Below, piece by piece: positions 8,238 through 59,115 of a stretch of DNA of 64,000 nucleotides. Under the pieces are notes generated by a model. The model was given only the letters and a program-made list of their open reading frames with translations, had not been told where the DNA came from and did no database searches. A program made the position numbers and the translations under genes. Position 1 is the first letter of the stretch. Every line of letters starts with the position of its first letter. Source of the DNA: Candidatus Cloacimonas acidaminovorans str. Evry (GTDB taxonomy: Bacteria; Cloacimonadota; Cloacimonadia; Cloacimonadales; Cloacimonadaceae); the NCBI RefSeq assembly GCF_000146065.2, contig NC_020449.1, forward strand, positions 744,001 through 808,000, written 5' to 3'.

Positions 8238-8681
8238 AAAGCAACAGTAAAACTTGCTTTGCCCGGTTATACCGGAAATATGGATGATGTGGTAATCTAC
8301 TATAATTCCAAGCTGAATAAGTTGATTGCCAGGAAAAAGGGAAAATCTGATTTTGTTCCCGACAATACTATTACCAAAGAGATTTATGCTTTTGCCCGGC
8401 GGATTAACTTGTCTGCTGACTACAAGAAGGATTGTGACAAGTATATCAATGCTTACAATTCCAAAAATCGGCGCAATGGAAAAGCGATGAGTTCCTGGCC
8501 CTCTGTCTGGATGAAAGTAATGAGAGCACAAAAGAAACTTTTACCCGAACTTGACTTGAATACCTTAACAAGGGAACAAGCTATTGAAGCTAATTTGGGT
8601 TGTATATCAATTGCCAAAGCTGTAGAAGCTGGCTTTCTGGAAAATGTTCCAGGACACCAAAAACTAACTAACCTGATTTAA
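8235..8681 (+). CDS. Unknown basic 148-aa protein, copy 1
   Basis: Not recognised. 148 aa, basic, no signal peptide or membrane segment. It is roughly half identical, without gaps, to the protein at 26987-27433. Conserved blocks are LPGxTGNMDDVVIYYNS at the N-terminus, NRxNRR near residues 75-80, MSxWPxVxMKVMRA, and LDLxTLTRE. AGGAG is 5-6 nt before the ATG but lies inside a 15-bp stem. The repeat block of the four-helix-bundle gene follows its stop directly. High conservation of the N-terminus and the basic NRxNRR patch would fit a nucleic-acid-binding protein, perhaps acting on its own leader, but that is speculation. Confidence 0.85.
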   Translation: MKATVKLALPGYTGNMDDVVIYYNSKLNKLIARKKGKSDFVPDNTITKEIYAFARRINLSADYKKDCDKYINAYNSKNRRNGKAMSSWPSVWMKVMRAQKKLLPELDLNTLTREQAIEANLGCISIAKAVEAGFLENVPGHQKLTNLI

Positions 8682-8690
8682 AGTACAGAA

Positions 8691-8770
8691 GTGCGGGAGT
8701 TCAAAGTTCAAAGTGTGGGAGTTCAAAGTTCAAAGTGCGGGAGTTCAAAGTGCGTGGGTGCAGGAGTTGA
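8691..8770. repeat. W4 inverted-repeat arm, left of four-helix-bundle gene
   Basis: Repeated words GTGCGGGAGTTCAAAGTTCA / AAGTGTGGGAGTTCAAAG in direct orientation. The reverse complement of the same words is found at 9149-9199, so the gene at 8774 lies between two complementary arms. The arm also supplies the AGGAG just before the GTG start. Confidence 0.85.
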
Positions 8771-8773
8771 AGG

Positions 8774-9148
8774 GTGAAGATAGATAGTTTCACTGATATT
8801 GAAGCATGGAAACAAGCACGACTTTTTGTGGTTAATGTCTATAATATCTTTTCCCAAGGTAATTCACAAAAGGACTTTGGTTTTAGAGATCAAATTCAAA
8901 GAGCATCTGTTTCTATTATGTCCAATATAGCTGAGGGTTTTGATAGTGGCTCTAAAAAGTCCTTTATTCAGTTTTTAACATACTCATATCGTTCTGCTTC
9001 AGAAGTTGAGTCCCTTTTATTTGTTGCCTTAGATATTAATTACCTAGATGCAAATCAACATAATGAACTTATGTCTCAGTTAAATAGCATCAAGAAATTA
9101 ATTGGCGGTTTTATCCGCTATCTAAAAAACACTCAACATCCCAACTAA
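8774..9148 (+). CDS. Four-helix-bundle protein (23S rRNA intervening-sequence type)
   Basis: 124 aa. The sequence matches the four-helix-bundle family first known from intervening sequences in 23S rRNA genes: FTDIEAWKQARLFV near the start, then FGFRDQIQRASVSIMSNIAE and the SxSxxEVESLL region. The biochemical role is unknown; the fold forms small homo-oligomers. The start is GTG 8774, with AGGAG from the repeat arm; no in-frame ATG is suitable. It sits between W4 inverted arms (8691-8770 and 9149-9199), much as the rRNA intervening sequences sit inside a stem, here outside rRNA. A second family member is at 23698. Confidence 0.9.
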   Translation: MKIDSFTDIEAWKQARLFVVNVYNIFSQGNSQKDFGFRDQIQRASVSIMSNIAEGFDSGSKKSFIQFLTYSYRSASEVESLLFVALDINYLDANQHNELMSQLNSIKKLIGGFIRYLKNTQHPN

Positions 9149-9199
9149 GAACTTTGAACTCCCGCACTTTGAACTTTTTAACTCCCGCACTAAGAACTT
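9149..9199. repeat. W4 inverted-repeat arm, right of four-helix-bundle gene
   Basis: GAACTTTGAACTCCCGCAC, TTTGAACTTTTTAACTCCCG and CACTAAGAACTT are the reverse complement of the words at 8691-8770. The arm starts at the stop codon of the gene. Confidence 0.85.
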
Positions 9200-22427: not shown

Positions 22428-22632
22428 CCAGTCCACTAATTCAGTCCACAAATTTACACGAATTTACACAAATAAAAGGTTGAGATGGTTGAGATGGTTG
22501 ATAGGGTTTAGAGGGTTGAGTGATTTTAATAGCGAATTATATTATAAACTTGGCAATTATAAAATAAATAATTCGTGATAATTTGTGAAAATTTGTTGAC
22601 TAAATTCGTGTAAATTTGTGAAAATTCGTGGA
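22428..22632. repeat. Empty inverted-arm block (W7 - W6 - W7 reversed)
   Basis: Left arm: CAGTCCACAAATTTACACG / AATTTACACAAAT words (W7). Then GGTTGAGATGGTTGAGATGG words (W6). Right arm: AATTCGTGTAAATTTGTG / AAAATTCGTGGA, the reverse complement of W7. No ORF lies between the arms. The same W7-W6-W7rc order recurs at 26713-26880. Confidence 0.85.
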
Positions 22633-22649
22633 TAAAGAAAAGGGAAAAT

Positions 22650-23627
22650 ATGAAAGTTCTTGTTACCGGTGCTGATGGTTTTATCGGTTCCCATCTTACA
22701 GAAGCATTATTGAAAGAGGGATACAAGGTAAGAGCTTTGTCTCAATACAATTCTTTCAATTATTGGGGTTGGTTGGAAGATATTAAACCAAGTTCAGGTT
22801 TGGAAATTGTATGTGGAGATGTCCGAGATCCTAATTTTTGCAGAGAAATAAGCAAAGACATAGATGTTATTTTTCATTTGGCTGCTTTAATAGCTATTCC
22901 TTATTCTTATATTGCACCGGAAAGTTATATTGAGACGAATGTAAAAGGGACTTTAAATATTTGCCAGGCAGCTAAAGATAATGGAGTGAAAAGAATTTTA
23001 GTTACTTCCACCAGTGAGGTTTATGGTACAGCACAATATGTCCCTATTGATGAAAAACATCCTTTGCAACCTCAATCACCTTATAGTGCCAGTAAAATTG
23101 GGGCTGATGCAATAGCGATGAGTTTTTATAATTCCTTTAAACTTCCTTTAACTATTGTGCGTCCTTTTAATACTTATGGTCCCCGACAATCTGCCAGAGC
23201 AGTGATTCCTACAATAATAACTCAAATTGCGAGTGGTGTAAAAGAAATTAAATTGGGAGATGCATCTCCAACTCGTGATTTCAACTATGTAGAAGATATT
23301 TGCCGGGGCTTTATTTTATTAGTCCAATGTGATAAAGCAATTGGCGAGACAGTGAATATTGGTTCCAACTATGAAATTTCCATAAAAGAGACCTTTGAAT
23401 TGATTAAGGATATAATGCATAGTGATGTTAAACTTATTACTGATGAACAGCGTATAAGACCTGAAAAATCAGAGGTCTTTCGTCTGTGGTGTGATAATAG
23501 AAAAATAAAGGCATTAACTGGTTATGAACCCAAATATAGCATCAAAGAAGGATTGGAAAAAACGGTGGAATGGTTTATAAATCCACAAAACCTGGCAAAA
23601 TACAAACCGGGAATCTATAATCTTTAG
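22650..23627 (+). CDS. legB: LegB-type NDP-HexNAc 4,6-dehydratase
   Basis: 325 aa extended SDR: VTGADGFIGSHLTEALLKEG, FHLAALIAIPYSYIAPESY, STSEVYGTAQYVPI, YSASKIGADAIAMSFY (catalytic Tyr-Lys) and RPFNTYGPRQSARAVIPTII. The LIAIPYSY and PTRDFNYVEDI stretches are characteristic of the LegB subgroup, which makes a 4-keto-6-deoxy-HexNAc nucleotide with retained C5 configuration. LegC lies two genes downstream. The four-helix-bundle insertion unit now separates the pair. Start ATG 22650 has AAAAGGGAAAA just upstream. Confidence 0.9.
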   Translation: MKVLVTGADGFIGSHLTEALLKEGYKVRALSQYNSFNYWGWLEDIKPSSGLEIVCGDVRDPNFCREISKDIDVIFHLAALIAIPYSYIAPESYIETNVKGTLNICQAAKDNGVKRILVTSTSEVYGTAQYVPIDEKHPLQPQSPYSASKIGADAIAMSFYNSFKLPLTIVRPFNTYGPRQSARAVIPTIITQIASGVKEIKLGDASPTRDFNYVEDICRGFILLVQCDKAIGETVNIGSNYEISIKETFELIKDIMHSDVKLITDEQRIRPEKSEVFRLWCDNRKIKALTGYEPKYSIKEGLEKTVEWFINPQNLAKYKPGIYNL

Positions 23628-23638
23628 TTCACGAATAA

Positions 23639-23695
23639 TAAAGGTTGAGAAGGTTGAGAGGGTTGAGAGGGTTTAGAGGGTTGAGAAGGTTGAGA
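23639..23695. repeat. W6 inverted-repeat arm, left of second four-helix-bundle gene
   Basis: AAGGTTGAGAAGGTTGAGAG and GGTTGAGAGGGTTTAGAGGG words; the reverse complement lies at 24057-24114. The arm ends 2 nt before the ATG and provides the purine-rich ribosome-binding region. Confidence 0.88.
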
Positions 23696-23697
23696 TA

Positions 23698-24120
23698 ATG
23701 AGAGAATATGGTTTTGAAAAGTTAAGTGTATGGCAGAATTCCAGAAAATTGGTTAAACAAGTTTATTGTCTTACAAAACAATTACCTTCCGAAGAAAAGT
23801 TTGGTTTGAGCTCACAAATGCAACGAGCTATTGTATCAGTTAGTTCAAATATTGCTGAAGGTGCATCAAGAGCTGGCAATAAAGATCAGAGTCATTTCTA
23901 TCAGACAGCTTATGCAAGTTTGATGGAAGTTCTTTGTCAGCTTATGCTTTGTTTTGATTTAGGGTTTATAAAAGAAGAGAAATATAATAACATCAGAGAG
24001 GCAATTGATAAAATCTCTTATCAAATCAATCAACTTCGCAATTCCGCTTTAAATAAACCTTCTCAACCCTCTCAACCCTCTCAACCATCTCAACCCTCTA
24101 AACCCTCTCAATCTAAATAA
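23698..24120 (+). CDS. Four-helix-bundle protein with repeat-encoded C-terminus
   Basis: 140 aa. Family features: YGFEKLSVWQNSRKLVKQVY, LPSEEKFGLSSQMQRAIVSV, SSNIAEGASRAGNKDQSHF, ASLMEVLCQLML. It is related to the gene at 8774 but not close. The last ~20 residues are SQPSQPSQPSKPSQSK-like, which is simply the W6 arm read in frame, so the arm is part of the coding sequence. The gene lies between legB and legC with inverted W6 arms, which suggests insertion of the whole unit between two functionally linked genes. Role unknown. Confidence 0.9.
   Translation: MREYGFEKLSVWQNSRKLVKQVYCLTKQLPSEEKFGLSSQMQRAIVSVSSNIAEGASRAGNKDQSHFYQTAYASLMEVLCQLMLCFDLGFIKEEKYNNIREAIDKISYQINQLRNSALNKPSQPSQPSQPSQPSKPSQSK
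24057..24114. repeat. W6 inverted-repeat arm, right (inside the gene's 3' end)
   Basis: CCTTCTCAACCCTCTCAACC and CTCTCAACCATCTCAACCCT words, reverse complement of 23639-23695, translated as a Ser-Gln-Pro repeat at the C-terminus of the four-helix-bundle protein. Confidence 0.88.
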
Positions 24121-24121
24121 T

Positions 24122-25339
24122 ATGGTCTATCAATATATAATCGACTTCATCCGTTCCCTCTATCCCAATAGAGAAACCGTTCCTCTTCACGAACCCTATT
24201 TTGGGGGTAATGAAAAGAAATATGTTCTGGATTGTATAGAAAGCACTTTTGTTTCTTCCGTCGGTAAATATGTGGATCGTTTTGAAGAGATGATCAAGGA
24301 TTTTACCGGTGCTAAATATGCCATTGCTACAGTGAATGGAACTTCTGCTTTGCATATTGCTTTAAAACTTGCCGGTGTCCAAGAAGGTGACCTGGTAATA
24401 ACTCAACCACTTACTTTTATAGCAACTTGTAATGCTATATCCTATTGTGGTGCAGAGCCAATTTTTGTAGATATTGATCCTGATACCTTAGGAATGTCTC
24501 CTGATTCATTAGCAAACTGGCTACAAGAAAATGTGGAGTTAAAGGTTGAGAGGGTTGAGGAAGGTTTAGAAGGTTTAGACCCTCAACCCTCTCAACTCTC
24601 TCAACCTTCTCAACCTTATAAACCCTATCACAAAATTAATAAAAAACGCATATCTGCTTGCGTTCCTATGCACACTTTTGGTCATCCCTGCAAAATGGAT
24701 AGTATTGTGGAAATATGCAATCGCTATCATATTCCCGTTGTGGAAGATGCTGCAGAATCAATTGGCAGTTACTATAAGGGTAAGCATACAGGCACTTTTG
24801 GGAAATTGGGAATATTAAGTTTTAACGGAAATAAAACAATAACTACAGGTGGTGGAGGGATGATTTTAACTGATGATGATGAACTTGGTCCCCTGGCAAA
24901 ACATCTTACCACAACTGCGAAAAAACCACATCCCTGGAAGTTTGAACATAATATGATCGGCTATAATTATCGTCTGCCAAATATAAATGCTGCTTTGGGT
25001 TGTGCGCAAATGGAAATGTTACCGGAAATTCTTAAAAACAAAAGAGAAACGGCGCATATTTATCAGGACTTCTTTCAAACAATTACTGATATTAATTTTA
25101 TTACAGAACCCGAAGATTGCATTTCTAACTATTGGCTAAATGCTATTCTCCTAAAAGATATGAAAGAAAGAGATGCTTTTCTGGAACAAGCAAATGCACA
25201 AAAAGTTAGGTGTCGTCCTGCTTGGATTCTGATGAACAAACTGGAAATGTTTAATCATTGCTTGACAACAGAAATTCCAATATCAGAAAAGATTGAATCC
25301 AAATTAGTTAATGTCCCAAGCAGTTATAGAAATAACTAA
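24122..25339 (+). CDS. legC: LegC-type aminotransferase carrying an in-frame repeat insertion
   Basis: 405 aa. LegC-family PLP aminotransferase: PLHEPYFGGNEKKYVLDCIE, STFVSSVGKYVDRFEE, ATVNGTSALHIALKLAGV, EDAAESIGSYYKGKHTGTFG and the Schiff-base lysine in SFNGNKTITTGGGGM. It aminates C4 of the LegB product. Residues ~140-170 (EGLEGLDPQPSQLSQPSQPY) are encoded by a W6 foldback sequence (24541-24632) and have no place in the family; without them the length is about 375-380, near the usual value. The insertion keeps the reading frame, in the loop between the 'DPDTLGMS' strand and the next beta strand, so activity may survive. Confidence 0.92.
   Translation: MVYQYIIDFIRSLYPNRETVPLHEPYFGGNEKKYVLDCIESTFVSSVGKYVDRFEEMIKDFTGAKYAIATVNGTSALHIALKLAGVQEGDLVITQPLTFIATCNAISYCGAEPIFVDIDPDTLGMSPDSLANWLQENVELKVERVEEGLEGLDPQPSQLSQPSQPYKPYHKINKKRISACVPMHTFGHPCKMDSIVEICNRYHIPVVEDAAESIGSYYKGKHTGTFGKLGILSFNGNKTITTGGGGMILTDDDELGPLAKHLTTTAKKPHPWKFEHNMIGYNYRLPNINAALGCAQMEMLPEILKNKRETAHIYQDFFQTITDINFITEPEDCISNYWLNAILLKDMKERDAFLEQANAQKVRCRPAWILMNKLEMFNHCLTTEIPISEKIESKLVNVPSSYRNN
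24541..24632. repeat. W6 foldback element inserted inside legC
   Basis: Left half 24542-24579 (GGTTGAGAGGGTTGAGG, AAGGTTTAGAAGG) and right half 24580-24624 (CCTCAACCCTCTCAAC, CTCAACCTTCTCAACC) are complementary, an almost loopless inverted repeat of W6 words. It is roughly 90 nt, a multiple of three without stop codons on the coding strand. Confidence 0.88.
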
Positions 25340-26712: not shown

Positions 26713-26880
26713 TCCAGTCCACGAATTCAGTCCACAAATTTACACAAATTGTCACAAATGAAAGAAGAAAGGTTGAGAAGGTTGAGAGGATTGAGATTTT
26801 TTCCGTATTTTTCATAGAAGCAATCTCTTGATAGATAATACATTATAATAATTAGTGAAAATTCGTGTAAATTTGTGGAC
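26713..26880. repeat. Empty inverted-arm block, second W7 - W6 - W7 reversed
   Basis: CAGTCCACAAATTTACAC and AAATTGTCACAAAT (W7), GGTTGAGAAGGTTGAGAGG (W6), then GTGAAAATTCGTG and TAAATTTGTGGAC (W7 reversed). It has the same composition and orientation as 22428-22632, so legB-4HB-legC-GNAT-pglD lie between direct copies. No gene in 26556-26908. Confidence 0.85.
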
Positions 26881-55632: not shown

Positions 55633-55665
55633 CCCACGCAGATTTCGCAGATAACGCAGATTAAA
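55633..55665. repeat. W1 arm, left of tandem GxxExxY pair
   Basis: CCACGCAGATTTCGCAGATA then ACGCAGATTAAAG. The reverse orientation closes the second GxxExxY copy at 56548. Confidence 0.88.
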
Positions 55666-55678
55666 GTACTATAATATA

Positions 55679-56074
55679 ATGAATTTGAACGAGATAAGTT
55701 ATCAAATTAGGGGTGCTGTTTTTGATGTATATAATGAACTGGGACCCGGGCTAATGGAAAATGTTTACGAAAAAGCTCTTATTATTGAATTGCAGAATAA
55801 GAAGTTACAAGTTCAAAAACAAGTTCCAATAGAAGTTCTTTATAGAGGTTTTGATCTTGGTCTTCAATATCGGTTGGATTTATTGGTAAATGAACAAGTG
55901 GTAATAGAATTGAAATCGGTAGAAACATTATTACCTGTTCATCATAAGCAGTTAATAACTTACTTGAAATTAGCAAAGAAACCTTTGGGCTTTTTAATTA
56001 ACTTCAATACTGATTCCATCAAAGACAATATCATAAGAATAGCCAATGACAAAAATCATCCAGACCTTAAATAA
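55679..56074 (+). CDS. GxxExxY protein, tandem copy 1
   Basis: 131 aa. NEISYQIRGAVFDVYNELGP, GLMENVYEKALIIEL (G-x-x-E-x-x-Y), then LQYRLDLLVNEQVVIELKSV (D...E-L-K, PD-(D/E)XK-like core), HHKQLITYLKLAKKPLGFLI and NFN. Same family as, but different subgroup from, 42462 and 49829. Nearly identical to the next copy, 472 bp on; four residues differ in what I compared. W1 arms flank each copy. Confidence 0.92.
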   Translation: MNLNEISYQIRGAVFDVYNELGPGLMENVYEKALIIELQNKKLQVQKQVPIEVLYRGFDLGLQYRLDLLVNEQVVIELKSVETLLPVHHKQLITYLKLAKKPLGFLINFNTDSIKDNIIRIANDKNHPDLK

Positions 56075-56075
56075 T

Positions 56076-56138
56076 AAAATCTGCGAAATCAGCTTTAAGT
56101 GGGTTGCACGCAGATTTCGCAGATAACGCAGATTAAAG
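56076..56138. repeat. W1 tandem junction between GxxExxY copies
   Basis: AAAATCTGCGAAATCAGC (reversed W1) , TTTAAGTGGGTTG, then CACGCAGATTTCGCAGATAA and CGCAGATTAAAG (forward W1). The same junction, with one base changed (TTGAAGTGGGTTG), separates the two copies at 63667-63728. Confidence 0.9.
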
Positions 56139-56150
56139 ATTTATAATATA

Positions 56151-56546
56151 ATGAATTTGAACGAGATAAGCTATCAAATTAGGGGTGCTGTTTTTGATGT
56201 ATATAATGAACTGGGACCCGGATTACTGGAAAAAGTTTATGAACAAGCTCTTATTATTGAATTGCAGAATAAGAAGTTACAAGTTCAAAAACAAGTTCCA
56301 ATAGAAGTTCTTTATAGAGGTTTTGATCTTGGTCTTCAATATCGGTTGGATTTATTGGTAAATGAACAAGTGGTAATAGAATTGAAATCGGTAGAAACAT
56401 TATTACCTGTTCATCATAAGCAGCTAATAACATACTTGAAATTAGCAAAGAAACCTTTGGGCTTTTTAATTAACTTCAATACTGATTCCATCAAAGACAA
56501 TATCATAAGAATAACCAATGACAAAAATCATCCAGACCTTAAATAA
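56151..56546 (+). CDS. GxxExxY protein, tandem copy 2
   Basis: 131 aa, near-identical to the copy at 55679 (GLLEKVYEQALIIEL here; GLMENVYEKALIIEL there; one Ala/Thr difference near the end). Intact D...E-L-K core. The 3' arm at 56548 ends one base before the start of the sugar transferase. The high identity of the two copies, including third positions, shows a recent tandem duplication of the arm-gene unit. Confidence 0.92.
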   Translation: MNLNEISYQIRGAVFDVYNELGPGLLEKVYEQALIIELQNKKLQVQKQVPIEVLYRGFDLGLQYRLDLLVNEQVVIELKSVETLLPVHHKQLITYLKLAKKPLGFLINFNTDSIKDNIIRITNDKNHPDLK

Positions 56547-56547
56547 T

Positions 56548-56580
56548 AAAATCTGCGAAATCAGCGTAATCTGCGTGGGA
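56548..56580. repeat. W1 arm, reversed, right of GxxExxY pair
   Basis: AAAATCTGCGAAATCAGCG then TAATCTGCGTGGGA, reverse complement of the arm at 55633. It abuts the ATG of the sugar transferase (56582), leaving that gene without its own visible SD. Confidence 0.88.
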
Positions 56581-58662: not shown

Positions 58663-59115
58663 ATGCCTAATAGTTTTACTCAGCTTTATATCCACTATGT
58701 CTTTATAGTTCAAGAACGTGAATGTGCTCTCAAGCCAGAGATCCAAGAACGTTTTTACCCATATTTGGTTAGTTTAATCCATCAAAAAAAATGTGTAACA
58801 ATAGCTATAAATGGGACAGAAAATCACATTCATTTACTTGTTAAAATGCACCCGGATGTTTCTATATCAGAATTAGCTAAATTTGCTAAAGCTAATTCCA
58901 GTCATTGGGCTAATGAAATAAGATTATTTCCCCATAGATTTCATTGGCAAGAAGGTTATGGTGCTTTTTCCGTGTCTCAAAGTATGTTTTAGACGGTTGT
59001 AAAATATATAGAAAATCAAGTGGAACATCATAAACATCAGACAGTTCAAGAAGAATATGAGCTTTTCCTCAAAAAACATAAGATAGAATATAATCCTAAA
59101 TATCTTCCTAAATAA
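58663..59115 (+). pseudogene. REP-associated tyrosine transposase (IS200-like Y1), nonsense mutation
   Basis: Start ATG 58663 (an upstream GTG 58642 lies within the REP). FTQLYIHYVFIVQ at the N-terminus and the HUH-type metal motif ENHIHLLVKM near residue 55; SISELAKFAKANSSHWANE and HWQEGYGAFSVSQ are standard for the family. TAG at 58990-58992 (codon 110) interrupts the frame, which continues as TVVKYIENQVEHHKHQTVQE to TAA 59113-59115. The nucleophilic tyrosine (Y115, Y-I-x-N-Q) lies after the stop, so the truncated product cannot cut DNA. REPs flank it: two direct upstream, one inverted downstream. Confidence 0.92.

Follow-up and report, generated by a model that had tools for sequence, protein, structure and literature searches.

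The window analysed here, a 64,000-nt stretch of the Candidatus Cloacimonas acidaminovorans str. Evry genome, contains the partner genes legB and legC with a small gene lodged between them. The upstream partner, legB (22650..23627, + strand), encodes an NAD-dependent 4,6-dehydratase (TIGR04180, 516.8 bits), and legC (24122..25339, +) encodes a LegC-family PLP aminotransferase of 405 aa, identified in a profile search by a TIGR04181 score of 542.8 bits against a curated cut-off of 420. The gene between them (23698..24120, +) encodes a 4HB protein of the 23S rRNA-intervening-sequence protein family (PF05635/TIGR02436). It is the cargo of a cassette whose left arm (23641..23695, +) and right arm (24053..24113, -) are inverted arrays of a nonamer, and the right arm also encodes the C-terminal SQP tail of the 4HB protein. 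A single CACGAAT unit at 23630..23636 (+) is likely a relic of a GxxExxY-type arm family, because a related genome (G049) carries more than one of them at the corresponding position. Nonamer arrays also occur without cargo, upstream of legB (22478..22520, +) and, as a short array, at 26771..26795 (+). Shortly after the former comes an ATTCGTG-type array, so that two arm families, with no cargo, lie just upstream of legB (22478-22635).

Otherwise intact, legC carries within it a foldback of the same nonamer units (24542..24628, +; codons 141-169, all open). The foldback consists of GGTTKAGAR units followed by their inverse: the left arm, AAGGTTGAGAGGGTTGAGGAAGGTTTAGAAGGTTTAGA (24542..24580, +), has four GGTTKAG units, one of them at a 10-nt step, and the right arm (24581..24624, -) has CCCTCAACCCTCTCAACTCTCTCAACCTTCTCAACC plus decaying units, its inverted units being of the CTCAACCCT type and reading (Q-P-S)n. 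The legC frame runs through residues 141-168 without a stop, and the peptide that it specifies is Glu/Gly/Leu-rich in its first part and Gln/Pro/Ser-rich in the next. The RNA form of the insert has a folding energy of -40.2 kcal/mol (z = -5.6). An earlier note on this DNA had described an in-frame, stop-free foldback of ~90 nt in legC and the same words flanking the neighbouring 4HB gene. Both observations are borne out: arrays of the same units lie on both sides of the 4HB gene, and the nonamer GGTTGAGARGGTTGAG, at <=2 mismatches, is found 23 times in the window against an expected 0.03, far beyond chance. These matches form four clusters, at 22478-22520, in the 4HB arms (23643-24113), in legC (24544-24624) and at 26771-26795.

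The nonamer family extends over the whole genome, with 274 matches (144+130) to GGTTGAGARGGTTGAG at <=1 mismatch; a reversed-pattern control yielded no match genome-wide at the same threshold, and an Rfam search of the window matched no RNA family. Unit steps and cluster contexts were taken from stretches read around the repeats. Of the 32 nonamer clusters examined in this way, all but those in legC and the 4HB tail fall outside recognisable genes, which suggests that landings of nonamer arms in genes are strongly filtered. The possibility that long open reading frames across other nonamer arrays (194, 147 and 106 aa, and others) are additional coding inserts was rejected; they had no Pfam match and chance-like frames. 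The earlier note had proposed that arms can move without their cargo gene. Cargo-less arrays are indeed common, with 32 clusters against a single 4HB gene with nonamer arms in this genome; the movement is our inference from this distribution, because neither arm movement, nor a target-site duplication, nor a same-species empty-site pair was seen in the genomes compared.

The segment between G124 and M183 of LegC spans 60 residues in the window protein and 36-37 residues in 62 of 80 LegC relatives from several phyla. The net gain is therefore ~23 residues over the usual loop, and 13-16 residues over the shortest relatives of the protein's own family. Where the earlier note counted about 30 added Ser/Gln/Pro-rich residues, there are ~28 codons of repeat and a smaller net gain, because the hairpin lacks some of its native residues. 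The insert as such is absent from most LegC relatives, and a Ser/Gln/Pro loop encoded by non-repeat DNA was not found among the related loops, which are short or hold other repeats. An AlphaFold model of the window LegC, built with 56 sequences in place of a poor model from 10, reached a mean pLDDT of 91.9 and a pTM of 0.90. It has the fold of a DegT-type aminotransferase, the closest solved structures being 7b0m (Foldseek top match, TM 0.81) and GDP-perosamine synthase. The pLDDT falls below 50 solely at residues 147-158, between strands 138-142 and 166-170, and this places the insert, by prediction, at the tip of a beta-hairpin on the protein surface with residues 147-158 disordered, in agreement with the surface loop that the earlier note had raised as a possibility.

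Every unit of the legC left arm has the K base with which a stop is avoided in the frame of that unit. Elsewhere, 222 of the 223 unit steps of <=30 nt, in the stretches read around repeats, are multiples of nine; in the legC left arm one 10-nt step shifts the frame mid-arm. Before this step two units have G at the K position, where T would give TAG, and after it two units have T, where G would give TGA. Given the genome frequencies of the two bases (188 G and 89 T), such a stop-avoiding pattern has a probability of 0.048. In the loop of G049 four decayed nonamer units stand in the TGA-prone frame, and TGA has been lost from all four; the RNA hairpin of this copy is gone (z +0.8) and the frame is still open. 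The choice of K bases, together with a frame kept in G049 without the hairpin, points modestly to constraint at the protein level.

LegC was found, at the cut-off used, in 14 of 125 Cloacimonadota genomes, and at least three unrelated repeat families occupy the same loop across the phylum. Within the LegC family of the window protein, nonamers fill it in the window genome and, decayed, in G049. Foldbacks of CACGAAT (CACGAATNNN) fill it in G034, G023 and G001, with decayed units in G047 and one arm in G006; the contig of G006 stops within the loop, and the loop sequence of G001 is interrupted by N. A third family, of CTCAACNGGRCGNAGYCC repeats, is present in G029 and G030, and the loops of G046, G020 and G033 are short or repeat-free (31-39 residues). 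The alignment shows different points of entry into the hairpin, by codon, for nonamer and for CACGAAT inserts, which are therefore separate events. In a LegC tree whose within-family branching is poorly resolved, G034, with CACGAAT, clusters with the third-family genomes G029 and G030 (support 96/89). The insertion described in the earlier note is real, and it is one instance among several in which this loop has been filled, rather than a single event.

The sharing of words between legC and the 4HB gene also extends beyond the window, as the loop usually matches the cassette beside legC. Upstream of legC lies a 4HB gene between nonamer arms in the window genome, G049 and G023, a 4HB gene between CTCAAC-type arms in G029 and G030, and a GxxExxY gene between CACGAAT arms in G034, G001 and G006 (the GxxExxY protein of G006 matches TIGR04256). 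The loop repeat is that of the neighbouring cassette arms in all of these genomes apart from G023, which is mixed, with nonamer cassette arms and a loop that is mainly CACGAAT with a nonamer-like piece. Genomes without a legC cassette mostly have short, repeat-free loops: no cassette was found beside legC in G046 and G020, both with short loops, and the spacer upstream of legC in G033 has arms without cargo and no loop repeat accompanies it. In G047 decayed CACGAAT relics stand in the loop and no cassette was found beside legC. Summed over loci, each loop and the 900 nt upstream of it have 184 9-mers in common, whereas shuffled pairings average 49 (p ~1e-5, with kinship ignored and some loci picked because repeats were present). 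With the pattern used, the repeat of G029 and G030 was found solely at the legC locus in these two genomes, and genome-wide abundance therefore does not account for the match there.

Similar arrangements occur independently elsewhere. Across the phylum, 4HB loci have their own inverted arms, with units mostly of 7-9 nt that differ by locus; the left and right arms of a locus share a median of 7 9-mers, against 0 between loci, and 11 of 31 loci exceed the 99th percentile for shared arm 9-mers. A second 4HB gene within the window (8795-9106) is flanked on both sides by different inverted arms, of AAAGTTCAAAGTGCGGGAGTTC units, with a total span of 8680-9199. In G051 a second LegC loop is built of (AACCTC)n (L168:1950-2040), and a 4HB gene immediately downstream has arms of the inverse sequence. 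The BREX genes pglX and pglZ of G038 are separated by a 4HB cassette, and pglX (L181:2-1411) contains three in-frame stretches of the arm units of this adjoining cassette, the largest of which is absent from all 6 aligned relatives; at the second pglX insert site a different repeat is found in G010. The pglX of G039 is a counter-example, as it carries these repeats with no 4HB gene within 1.5 kb. Two cases of matching legC-loop repeats were found in Bacteroidota: in the Flavobacteriales locus L076 the legC loop and the gene upstream have a common in-frame (GAACAAC) repeat (the upstream stretch at L076:900-1400), and in Anaerophaga (L053) the repeats of spacer and legC loop match.

We propose, with a probability of roughly 0.7, that the legC insert derives from 4HB-cassette arms copied without their cargo; such arms would spread, often locally, and be kept as in-frame copies in permissive loops. 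The source of the insert would be the inverted nonamer arms of the cassette that lies 0.4 kb upstream, with copying probably directed from cassette to gene. That cassette would be one of a class made up of a small gene, 4HB or GxxExxY, between inverted tandem arrays whose short units vary by cassette. Some copying or insertion step would carry arm sequence to near and far sites, and most landings within genes would be lost. The surface beta-hairpin tip of LegC would tolerate added residues, so that in-frame, stop-free copies persist there, presumably through tolerance rather than benefit. Surviving copies would be translated as a disordered loop and would then decay in the manner of protein-coding sequence.

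Several other explanations were weighed against this proposal. If legB, cassette and legC were inherited or transferred as one block together with both repeats, a few original insertions would suffice and no ongoing local copying would be needed; G029 and G030 are close relatives, and the CACGAAT loops of G034, G001 and G023 have flanking words in common and may go back to a single insertion. Such block movement accords poorly with the different entry codons of nonamer and CACGAAT inserts and with the grouping of G034 with G029/G030; it leaves G051, L076 and pglX as separate cases, and the origin of a first match is not explained by it. We thus regard it as unlikely, though deserving of attention. 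Slippage, by which the repeats would have arisen in place in a weakly constrained loop and independently of any cassette, seems to us improbable. In its favour are the short length and tandem order of the units, the clear tolerance of the LegC loop for length change, and the Bacteroidota loops of L083 and L101, which resemble simple low-complexity sequence; however, the window insert has both unit orientations and uses the exact units of a cassette 0.4 kb away and of ~30 other clusters, and slippage would leave the neighbour-cassette matches in several repeat families and in pglX unexplained.

A selected function, with the insert acting as an mRNA hairpin that controls legC or as an adaptive loop for assembly or substrate handling, would be in keeping with the strong hairpins of the window and of G034 (z -6.9) and with the long loops of many family members. 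The loss of the hairpin in G049 with the frame kept open argues against an RNA role, and loop sequences are unrelated between species, the window loop is predicted to be disordered, and several relatives manage without a loop insert; we consider such a function rather more doubtful still. Repeats often break assemblies, as the interruptions in the G006 and G001 loops illustrate, but the window genome is one contig of 2,246,820 bases and many independent assemblies hold comparable in-frame inserts, so that an assembly or sequencing artefact is hardly credible.

The known systems that come closest include the Rickettsia palindromic elements (RPE), palindromes of ~150 bp found in intergenic and intragenic positions, the latter in frame and contributing residues at non-structured, tolerated positions (PMC10969869, PMC2996958), with about half of the copies inside genes (PMC10969869). 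The likeness in principle to these coding palindromes, noted earlier together with the unrelatedness of the repeat family, is upheld: a palindromic repeat stands in frame within a conserved gene, as it does in RPE and in similar Wolbachia coding palindromes. RPE, compared here by description, consist of a single conserved palindrome whose encoded peptide is conserved too, whereas the legC insert consists of tandem nonamers in two inverted arrays, in another phylum and of another sequence. The loops of relatives are unrelated and the other genome copies lie outside recognisable genes; in place of a genic share of about half, the nonamer family has ~1 of 32 clusters in a recognised gene, the 4HB tail apart. 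Furthermore, the nonamer repeats are the arms of a cassette with cargo, and different species carry unrelated repeat families in this one loop. The legC insert therefore works like an RPE but is not one, because it has no conserved peptide and a low share of coding copies.

The adjacent cassette, rather than the legC insert, resembles the 23S rRNA intervening sequences (IVS), in which an S23/4HB ORF (PF05635) stands between inverted repeats; here the elements lie not in a 23S rRNA helix but in the legB-legC spacer and within legC, the tandem arms are longer, and a cargo-less copy is present in a protein gene. In Coxiella, tandem heptamers (GACAGAT) precede the ORF of the IVS, and such elements have been suggested to be mobile (PMC4990558). 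MITEs and intragenic ERIC/BOX-type elements are short, non-autonomous DNAs with inverted repeats that are able to fuse in frame (PMC10969869); the legC insert has inverted arms as well, with no duplication at its junctions as judged by eye and no terminal inverted repeats of a known transposase. The dispersal of short palindromic repeats recalls REP/REPIN-RAYT systems, from which the nonamer arrays differ in not being REP hairpins. PARCELs, palindromic repeated coding sequences that spread between genes (PMC2996958), form amphipathic domains, largely in membrane and surface proteins, whereas the legC case concerns the loop of a sugar enzyme. In literature searched outside subscription sources, we found no description of arm-bearing GxxExxY or 4HB cassettes, nor of arm-matched loop inserts.

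Descriptions of in-frame coding palindromes have, to our knowledge, come mainly from Rickettsia and Wolbachia and have lacked a source element. In the present case a candidate source element adjoins the invaded gene, and unrelated repeats fill the same loop across species, so that two questions become testable, namely the role of the 4HB/S23 gene family and the entry of repeats into proteins. A loop repeat equal to a neighbouring cassette arm provides a practical signature for finding further cases. More tentatively, and at less than even odds, 4HB and GxxExxY genes might be the cargoes of widespread, undescribed mobile cassettes whose arms are copied preferentially into adjacent genes such as legC and pglX, stamping their own repeats into permissive loops. 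The 23S rRNA IVS would then be a special case, and the 4HB protein, which resembles Avd, a possible helper.

Two other candidate helpers were considered. Matches to Y1_Tnp, the domain of a RAYT helper, number three in the genome, two of them with internal stops; the window match has a repeat other than the nonamer on its flanks, and another has nonamer-like units ~0.2 kb away. The window homologue, a RAYT-like Y1 transposase (58675-59019), has an internal TAG and its own flanking GTCCCATCGGGAC / CGGGTTTTAACCCG hairpins. A reverse-transcriptase route, considered in view of the likeness of 4HB to Avd, was set aside; the genome has one RVT_1 gene, for which no link to the arms emerged. This gene (L214, L131; G000:C1:1390132-1391257, at 1.39 Mb) adjoins a weak 4HB/Avd-like match and probably belongs to a diversity-generating retroelement. 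Finally, positions 55635-56565 of the window consist of two tandem copies of 472 bp that match at 97%; their consensus contains CACGCAGATTTCGCAGAT-type repeats and an apparent start of a GxxExxY gene, and the pair is possibly a duplicated cassette.
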